IMG/VR virus record: IMGVR_UViG_3300030333_003949
Coordinates: 1 to 20,792 of that record
Direction: 5' to 3' (one strand)
Length of the DNA stretch: 20,792 nucleotides
Source: a virus
A program made the position numbers and the translations under genes. The notes beneath the pieces were generated by a model that was given only the letters and a program-made list of their open reading frames with translations, did not search any database and was not told the DNA's origin. This document shows positions 1 through 5,740 of the stretch, piece by piece. Numbering within the stretch: the stretch's first letter is position 1; the number at the start of each line of letters is the position of its first letter.

Positions 1-599
1 GCAGTCGTGCTCTCGCACTAGGCACGGAGTTTGTTGGAGTTCTCAACCAAACCAACACTTTTACACTAACTTCAGTGTGCTAGTAGTAGAACTACCATAA
101 GAACGGCTACTACCCTCAAGTAAATGCGAGCATAAGTTAGTGGGGCGAAGGAGTTTACAGAGCCGTGTCGCTGGACAATTCAAAGTAGCTTTAGCGAAAC
201 GAATGTAATGACCAATAGCGGGCCGTGCGTATAGAGAACTCCATCGCTAACTGCGAGGTATATAGAGGGGCAGTTAGCATTTATAACAAAAATAGGAGTA
301 AGAAAGCGAAAGAATAAGGTGTGAGCAGTTTTTCGTAAACATAAGAACCAATGCCTACTCACCTTTCGCATCTTAATCGTTAGAGGCGGCAGCGTATAAG
401 TCCTTAATTAAAGTTCCAGCCTAGCGAGGTCCCACGCCTGAAGTTGAAGTAGGGAGAGTAGGGTTAATCCACGATTAAGATTAAAAGCAGATAAGTCTTT
501 CCGCACGTAAGCACTGCACATTGGGAATATATGCGTAAATACCAATGAAAGTATAAAACCTATCGTTTTTCAACCGAGCGCAAGTCGCTCGGTTTTTTT
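1..599 (+). ncRNA. candidate large structured noncoding RNA (5' end outside window)
   Basis: No convincing gene lies in the first 718 bases. Instead I find several long perfect complements: 35-44 with 234-243 (10 bp), 64-72 with 134-142 (9 bp), 246-254 with 270-278 (9 bp), 372-380 with 471-479 (9 bp), 83-89 with 107-113, 306-312 with 363-369, and 519-524 with 542-547. Local hairpins include 6-10/22-26 and 29-33/48-52. The 35-44 segment lies in the loop of the 29-52 hairpin, so its pairing with 234-243 would be a pseudoknot or kissing interaction. The stretch ends in a strong rightward terminator at 572-599, so the transcript is on the + strand. I see no group I intron, tmRNA or RNase P signature. 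Known phage-borne giant RNAs (GOLLD, ROOL) are possible relatives, but I cannot confirm a family. Confidence 0.6.
572..599 (+). terminator. intrinsic terminator of the structured RNA
   Basis: A perfect 9-bp stem (AACCGAGCG, 572-580, with CGCTCGGTT, 586-594) closes a 5-base loop, and the T tract runs from 593 to 599. It separates the upstream RNA from the promoter at 650-678. Confidence 0.93.
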
Positions 600-649: not shown

Positions 650-678
650 TTGACAATTCCTTAAAGGCGTGATATAAT
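650..678 (+). promoter_or_regulatory. sigma70-type promoter of the first operon
   Basis: TTGACA at 650-655, 17-bp spacer, TATAAT at 673-678, preceded by AAAATAGTTC. Start of transcription is expected near 685, giving a leader of about 34 bases with an AGGAGG ribosome site at 708-713. One of ten near-identical promoters in the window. Confidence 0.9.
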
Positions 679-4561: not shown

Positions 4562-4741
4562 CGGGGTCAAATACTCTGCTATGGTTCTTGCAGACCATTA
4601 CATCTTTTTATAATCTAGGGATAATTTGCATATAAGGCGTATTAATTTTACATAGTTTTATTATGTATATTGGTTATTATAGGTAAAAAATAACGGACGA
4701 ATTAGACGCAATTGTAGGAACTTGGAGTGTTGAGTGAATTT

Positions 4742-4786
4742 AGTAAGAATTATGTGCAGTTCGATACGAACCTTCTTACTTTTTTA
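4742..4786 (+). terminator. two-tier rightward terminator
   Basis: Outer stem AGTAAGAA (4742-4749) with TTCTTACT (4773-4780), inner stem GTTCG (4759-4763) with CGAAC (4767-4771), then a T tract at 4780-4786. On the opposite strand there is no U tract after the stem, so it works rightward. It lies 180 bases after the last gene, leaving room for an unannotated transcript. Confidence 0.75.
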
Positions 4787-4823
4787 TAGATTTATAAATG
4801 ATTGATATGACTTCCTCATAATC

Positions 4824-4911
4824 ACATCGCTAAATAATTAAAATTACAAGGTAAGCTCTTTCGCTTTGGCTACAGAGCTCTCTTGAAATGTAATTTCATT
4901 ATAAGCGATGT
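4824..4911. ncRNA. candidate structured RNA, long nested hairpin
   Basis: Three nested perfect pairings: ACATCGCT (4824-4831) with AGCGATGT (4904-4911); AAATTACA (4841-4848) with TGTAATTT (4889-4896), extended by CAAG with CTTG around a 3-base bulge; and AGCTCT (4854-4859) with AGAGCT (4874-4879). Together they form an 88-base arm. Strand is ambiguous because it is symmetric; a TGnTATAAT element on the minus strand (4968-4976) would start a leftward transcript just before it. Confidence 0.5.
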
Positions 4912-5092
4912 TGCGTGAAATATGAGAATTATTTGGTTTATCTAAATCATTTATTAATTATGATATTATTATACCACAATTTTACCAAAAATGCAAGAAG
5001 TATTTTTTGGTGGGGTATGATTTTGCGGATTGGAATAGTATGAAGTCATGATAAAATATTTTATTTTTTGAATGTGGAGTAGTAATTTGAGG

Positions 5093-5326
5093 TTATCGAA
5101 ACCATCGTTGCTCTCGAGCTCTCCTCTCAAACTCGGCTTTTTCTTTAGCAATTGCTCGGTCTTTTCGTCTAATCGCTTCTTGCTTTACTCGCCTTCTCTT
5201 TGCGTTTGGCTTTTCATACCACTCTCGTTTGCGAACTTCATCTTTTATACCAGCGTTGTCGCACTTCTTTCGAAAAATTCGAAGTGCTTTTTCAAAGGAC
5301 ATATTTTTAGCATTTACTCTTGGCAT
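5093..5326 (-). CDS. rpsU: phage-encoded ribosomal protein bS21
   Basis: 77 residues with the bS21 pattern: SFEKALRIFRKKCDNAGI, then VRKREWYEKPNAKRRRVKQE, matching the E. coli protein (FDVALRRFKRSCEKAGV, VRRREFYEKPTTERKRAK). Length equals the cellular family. bS21 sits on the 30S platform next to the anti-Shine-Dalgarno end of 16S rRNA and helps initiation on structured or natural mRNAs. A phage copy could exchange into host ribosomes to favour phage transcripts; that effect is inference, though phage bS21 genes are known in marine phages. AGAGGG precedes the ATG. The gene overlaps its upstream neighbour by 13 bases and ends the leftward operon. Confidence 0.95.
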   Translation of the reverse strand: MPRVNAKNMSFEKALRIFRKKCDNAGIKDEVRKREWYEKPNAKRRRVKQEAIRRKDRAIAKEKAEFERRAREQRWFR

Positions 5327-5547
5327 ATACCCTCTGCTCGTGTTAGGCGATAGAGGTCGTTTGCAATATTGTTTTGATTGTCACAGGTTGCTTGTATAAA
5401 TCTTTGAACCCATGCCATATCATAGCAGAAATCGGGATCCGCTATATTGATACCTAACTTACTACATTCAGTAATAAGTTTATCCATTAGTATTAAAACT
5501 TGTTTTTCCGAATCTGTTTTTCTCGGAAATTGTATTACATTATTCAT
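5314..5547 (-). CDS. conserved-looking hypothetical phage protein
   Basis: 77 residues beginning MNNVIQFPRK. Predicted helical, with DPDFCYDMAWVQRFIQATCDNQNN in its centre, a pattern (yD-AWV-F--A--DNQ) I associate with small proteins of T4-type marine phages, without known function. Sits between a SANT-like gene and bS21 and overlaps both by 8 and 13 bases, so the three are co-translated. Confidence 0.75.
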   Translation of the reverse strand: MNNVIQFPRKTDSEKQVLILMDKLITECSKLGINIADPDFCYDMAWVQRFIQATCDNQNNIANDLYRLTRAEGICQE

Positions 5548-5740
5548 CTCTTATCCTTTTAAATGTCCACCCACGCTTTCGCAGGTAGTTTACTTGTGAA
5601 GTTATAGAACTGCGTGTTCTATTAAGTTTACTTTCTAAATCAGCTATGGGAATTACATTGTAGTATTCCTTTAGCGTTGCTTTCTCAGTATCAGACCAAT
5701 GCCCTCTGCGAGTAGCTAATTTAGTTTCAGTTAATTTCAT
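5540..5740 (-). CDS. SANT/Myb-like DNA-binding protein (paralogue 2)
   Basis: 66 residues. RGHWSDTEKATLKEYYNV, IADLESKLNRTRSSITSQV and YLRKRGW match the SANT/HTH unit of the proteins at 4008, 13699 and 18279 (W-x-D/E-E...; I-x2-L-x-R/K-T/S-x2-S-I/V; L...G). It has a single unit and a basic tail (RKRGWTFKRIRDE). The ATG sits exactly 7 bases after the -10 box of its promoter, so the mRNA is predicted to be leaderless. First gene of the bS21 operon; it may regulate or package DNA, as inference. Confidence 0.75.
   Translation of the reverse strand: MKLTETKLATRRGHWSDTEKATLKEYYNVIPIADLESKLNRTRSSITSQVNYLRKRGWTFKRIRDE

Follow-up and report, generated by a model that had tools for sequence, protein, structure and literature searches.

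The first 599 nucleotides of the window, the 20,792-nt (20.8-kb) stretch of virus record IMGVR_UViG_3300030333_003949 analysed here, very probably belong to a real, large, structured non-coding RNA. Since the contig begins inside this RNA, positions 1-599 hold its 3' part only. The missing 5' part, including the promoter, is estimated at about 430-540 nt from the relatives L007 and L064, in which the motif found at 26-58 of the window lies 459 and 564 nt from the start of the RNA, and the full RNA is about twice the length visible here. With moderate confidence, the segment is read as the 3' half of a non-coding RNA that is independent, measures about 1.0-1.1 kb and works as a structural RNA in the manner of GOLLD and ROOL. 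Judged by the comparison of related loci, it is a conserved, independent transcription unit that is non-coding, structured and modular. By the same comparison, interchangeable hairpins are mounted on a scaffold whose conserved joints are a D domain in the 5' half, which includes a small pseudoknot, the motif at 26-58, M9 and the core.

A preliminary description of the window had pictured a gene-free block of about 600 bases with an excess of perfect complements, ending in a 9-bp terminator with a T tract, and all of this was borne out. No credible gene was found in 1-599. Five maximal perfect complements of at least 9 bp lie within this block, against 0.62 +/- 0.78 in its dinucleotide shuffles (n = 60), none of which reached five. 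The overall folding energy of the block is ordinary (z -0.7); energy was treated as weak evidence, and the conclusions were not built on it. The parts recognised in the block and just downstream are as follows.

1-599, plus strand: 3' part of the giant RNA, by homology to L007, L032/L064, L003, L009 and others and by synteny
26-58, plus strand: conserved hairpin with a pseudoknot-like complement (HMM matches in 17 RNAs)
29-33/48-52, plus strand: putative helix 1 of the 26-58 motif, nearly invariant
34-36/53-55, plus strand: helix 2 of the 26-58 motif, covarying
64-142, plus strand: M9 joint module with conserved CAGTGTGCTAG...CTCAAGTAAATGCGAGCATA, outer helix 64-72/134-142 (9-bp perfect complement) and a variable hairpin at the tip
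83-113, plus strand: M1 plug-in hairpin, stem 83-89/107-113, loop AACTACCATAAGAACGG, found at other sites in other phages
143-164, plus strand: core strand 1 (GGGCGAAGGAGTTTACAGAGCC), contributing to helix 150-155/237-242
173-213, plus strand: M4 plug-in hairpin with AGUA/GAA at insert site 1, also in L007 and L032/L064
227-258, plus strand: core strand 2 (GCGTATAGAGAACTCCATCGCTAACTGCGAGG)
246-278, plus strand: core helix 246-254/270-278 (9-bp perfect complement; z -4.6) with insert site 2 at its tip
316-366, plus strand: 3' domain hairpin with GTAAACATAAGAAC, also in L004 and L009
370-481, plus strand: 3' domain with closing helix 370-380/471-481 (11-bp perfect complement)
430-464, plus strand: M7 module (TCCCACGC...GAGAGTAGGG; HMM matches in 9 RNAs)
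572-599, plus strand: rho-independent terminator with T tract, hairpin 572-594 (9-bp perfect complement 572-580/586-594; -14 kcal/mol, z -5.1)
650-678, plus strand: 12/12 consensus promoter of the next gene (719-961), standing between the RNA and that gene

The individual complements fared differently. Those at 64-72/134-142 and 246-254/270-278 covary, and 572-580/586-594 is the terminator. The remaining 10-bp complement, 35-44/234-243, had been proposed as a pairing with a hairpin loop, and this was contradicted because 237-242 has another covarying partner, 150-155. In L009, the change of 237-242 to AGATAC is accompanied by GTATCT at 150-155, and GGAGTTCTC of 36-44 is unchanged. The pairing was rejected on these grounds, and the complement appears to be accidental, arising from two elements that are similar in sequence. 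In the 3' domain, L009 carries an unrelated helix, recognised by eye only, where the window has 370-380/471-481. Elsewhere in the window, convincing genes are also lacking over about 530 bp at 4562-5092; this second stretch separates the plus-strand genes from a short minus-strand cluster (5093-5740).

The helicase, split NAD ligase and D5-like regulator encoded in the window place it near the T5-like phages, which are its nearest cultured relatives by the helicase (about 30% identity). Relatives of the locus were sought by the downstream proteins, by conserved DNA patterns and finally by alignment of a small upstream D5-like (mini-D5) gene, and at least 188 related loci were found in viral contigs. 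The best 80 of them were fetched, of which 76 extend far enough to be judged (61 non-redundant). All 76 share one layout, in which the mini-D5 gene is followed by a consensus promoter, the gene-free block and the next consensus promoter. The block measures about 0.65-1.6 kb (roughly 650-1,590 nt), mostly 0.9-1.3 kb. Among the non-redundant loci, the -35 box is perfect (TTGACA) in 55 of 61 and the -10 box (TATAAT) in 60 of 61; a terminator-like hairpin lies within the last 160 nt in 44 of 61, compared with 0 in shuffled or internal controls. One contig (L102/L141) has, unlike the other loci, a 139-aa open reading frame between the mini-D5 gene and the RNA promoter; in L102, the RNA block follows this extra frame, at the next promoter. 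A tRNA-Glu gene lies no more than about 0.3 kb from the RNA block in L004, L022, L036 and L038, and tRNA genes occur some kilobases off in L012, L040, L043 and L044; most loci have no tRNA nearby. A member genome of 105 kb carries terminase, portal, tape measure, DNA polymerase and ribonucleotide reductase genes, and the detected modules occur in it only once, at the RNA. The carriers are uncultured, distantly T5-like phages, dozens of which hold the RNA at the same genome position. Their genes and relatives suggest a marine source.

Covariation in these loci supports 64-72/134-142, 150-155/237-242, 246-254/270-278 and the M1 stem. In helix alignments trimmed by hand of variable inserts, the M9 joint 64-72/134-142 has double changes in 8 of 9 pairs (38 double-changed cells), the core helices 150-155/237-242 and 246-254/270-278 have five double-changed pairs together (3 + 2), and helix 34-36/53-55 has two-sided changes in 3/3 pairs. 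The 5' D domain was found in 36 of 69 RNAs. Its hairpin is 100% paired in the alignment, and its 3-bp pseudoknot combines CGU, GGU or AGU with ACG, ACC or ACU, as read from an imperfect alignment. For M9, the core, 34-36/53-55 and the D domain, the observed covariation score was reached in 0 of 500 shuffles, and the counts collapse when the partners are slid. All five counted pairs of the M1 stem covary below a near-invariant loop. Whole-length alignments of four clades gave 75, 68, 61 and 44 double-changed pairs, against 14-26, 23-32, 19-28 and 4-13 in their column-shuffled versions. The fifth, more diverged clade (c3) gave 7, not above its shuffles, and its energy is better than that of the shuffles. 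The clade alignments fold about equally well in sense and antisense. As energy does not discriminate the strand, its assignment rests on the promoters, the terminators and the G-U pairs present in covarying helices (M9 joint and D domain). Synteny, promoters, terminators and covariation in relatives support the earlier picture, in which a large, structured phage RNA stops at a terminator.

No conserved protein frame runs through the region on either strand, according to open reading frame and codon-periodicity tests. Sense frames in the RNA blocks have a median length of 50 aa, which does not exceed that of shuffled sequence (51 aa). Antisense substitutions fall on the three codon positions at 623/588/660, which is no periodicity, and most indels break the frame; in the neighbouring mini-D5 gene, the counts are 1196/770/2748 and all indels are in-frame. 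A protein-coding gene, sense or antisense, was rejected on the basis of frame lengths and missing periodicity. Long frames in the RNA blocks are strongly skewed to the antisense strand (105 vs 22 sense), which probably reflects the abundance of loops with UAG or UAA in the sense RNA.

Hairpins of the same kind occupy different scaffold sites in different phages. M1 is an example: the window and L036 have it at the M9 tip, L005, L009 and L022 in core insert 1, L003 and L034 in insert 2, and L004 and L012 at other places. It occurs at most once per record, and the sequence of its 5-bp stem is almost wholly replaced between phages. M2 is found in M9 (L013, L034) or insert 2 (L032, L048) and is restricted to the slot in every locus with a flank long enough. 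M5 lies in insert 1 (L008, L026) or insert 2 (L007, L017), M7 inside a core insert in L005 and L009, and M8 in M9 (L043, L049) or in the 5' part. A kissing interaction between the M1 and M8 loops was considered and dropped, because the complementary bases are already paired within M8.

M8 (GATAACAAACCAATTTCTTGGTAGCAAC) also occurs alone, in the 5' leader of an Hsp20 gene carried by T4-like phages, as in L138 (4241-4265) and likewise in L137, L139, L140, L142-L145, L148 and L149. Where a promoter was found, the leader copy lies 46-75 nt past it, and the stems differ and covary. In L146, M8 precedes a gene other than Hsp20. The leader copies have no Rfam match and are possibly an unreported cis-regulatory or mRNA-stabilising motif.

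The covariance models of Rfam, including those of GOLLD, ROOL, OLE, HEARO and tmRNA, returned no match to a known large RNA. In the window, Rfam gave nothing except a tRNA located elsewhere; in positions 1-720 at E<=5, the single match was Yfr10 at 281-336 (E 3.2), which was taken as chance. Six full-length loci had no relevant match at E<=1, and about 30 loci (11 + 20) gave only tRNAs at gathering scores. The GOLLD and ROOL models matched neither the window nor the six full-length loci nor the larger set, and tmRNA (ARAGORN and covariance model), OLE and HEARO were likewise without a match. Matches to mir-87 in L013 (611-684 and 1240-1311, minus strand), below the cut-off and outside the RNA, were also taken as chance; the inverted repeats there are probably a phage hairpin repeat that mir-87 fits by accident. 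By DNA, there was no relative among 50,697 phage records. A tblastn search of cultured phages with the mini-D5 protein found nothing, and a 24-base pattern had no relative in GTDB genomes. Two Methanothrix matches proved to be an unrelated inverted repeat. No published description of the RNA was found in the open literature; an unnamed mention in large viral RNA surveys is possible. Of the two identities suggested in the preliminary description, membership of a GOLLD or ROOL type is therefore not supported for lack of a covariance-model match, and a new phage RNA is supported.

GOLLD and ROOL have recently been shown to form RNA-only cages, the purpose of which is not known. Phages and prophages carry GOLLD, a giant ornate non-coding RNA that often exceeds 800 nt and lies near tRNA genes, and ROOL is a large phage RNA with several pseudoknots that is sometimes very abundant (PMC12286853). 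The RNA described here resembles GOLLD in being a giant ornate non-coding phage RNA. Unlike GOLLD, it has other sequence and modules, no covariance-model match, interchangeable hairpins and a fixed slot after the mini-D5 gene in distantly T5-like phages, and it is longer (to 1.6 kb). It shares with ROOL large size and a pseudoknot, but no covariance-model match links the two, and the solved ROOL structure has 659 nt compared with about 650-1,590 nt here.

The cultured phages closest to the window by helicase likewise have a large RNA, RNAX of T5, a 719-nt "stable RNA with unknown functions" downstream of promoter P16-17 (AY543070 annotation). No shared module and no alignable sequence was found between RNAX and the new RNA; unlike the latter, RNAX is flanked by tRNA-Arg and contains a tRNA match, and the gene beside it is not recognisably mini-D5 (by eye). 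Homology was rejected for want of sequence or module support. In the T5 genome (L136), RNAX spans 40848-41566 and is followed by tRNA-Arg. Rfam places the tRNA match at 41432-41503, close to the 5' end of RNAX, and its large-RNA families do not match RNAX.

Several other explanations of the block were weighed. That it is a long 5' leader or riboswitch of the downstream gene 719-961 is extremely improbable: a homologue of that gene follows the RNA in the relatives examined for it, but the terminator at 572-594 and the separate 12/12 promoter at 650-678 intervene, as their counterparts do in relatives. It is very improbable, and already disfavoured, that the RNA is a divergent member of GOLLD or ROOL. 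In its favour, the RNA is phage-borne, large, ornate, non-coding and pseudoknotted, and tRNA genes lie near some copies; against it, the Rfam searches described above detected neither family. Little more can be said for a cis-acting DNA or RNA element, such as a replication origin or a packaging or transfer signal, in place of a trans-acting RNA. In the 105-kb relative there is just one copy, at a fixed position close to where the plus-strand gene region begins, which would suit this improbable reading; a promoter and terminator of its own in the RNA orientation, the G-U pairs in covarying helices, and the length and complexity of the structure argue against it.

A decoy or scaffold RNA is more serious and, although unlikely in itself, ranks close behind assembly into a particle. 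Its plug-in hairpins would bind host or phage proteins or RNAs, titrating or co-localising them, and no homo-oligomeric particle would be formed. Near-invariant loops on freely changing, covarying stems fit recognition elements, as do the swapping of hairpins between sites, the solitary M8 in the Hsp20 leader of T4-like phages, and the AGUA/GAA sequences of M4 and M13, which we take, by sequence, to be sarcin-ricin-like. Nevertheless, the elaborate conserved scaffold exceeds the needs of a string of binding sites, and the binding partners are only putative.

In the assembly reading, the RNA would be transcribed from its own consensus sigma70-type promoter, seen in relatives, and would stop at the intrinsic terminator. 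Transcription itself is presumed, and it is probably strong because the promoter is near-consensus. The RNA would then accumulate in lytic infection and act in trans as a structural RNA. It would fold compactly at the tertiary level, and the plugged hairpins may serve as tertiary contact or binding elements. Folded or oligomerised into a large particle or RNP, the RNA might hold or organise phage or host components; assembly of this kind, by analogy with what has been proposed for GOLLD and ROOL, is advanced tentatively.

As it combines a lack of any catalogued family match with a conserved frame bearing interchangeable hairpins, the RNA looks like a new class within the giant ornate phage RNA kind, distinguished by site-swapping hairpins. 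The fuller proposal, an undescribed class of giant RNAs up to the size of 16S rRNA, whose plug-in hairpins recombine between sites and phages and which forms an RNA or RNP particle during infection, is possible but somewhat doubtful. To our knowledge, only a handful of RNAs this large and complex are known from bacteria and phages. A larger class in one slot of widespread uncultured phages would be a natural experiment on the requirements of such RNAs, and the swapping of hairpins on a covarying scaffold would supply ready constructs for structure work. Moreover, invariant loops on changing stems, with M8 also present in an mRNA leader, may offer definable binding elements and would make the question of function testable.
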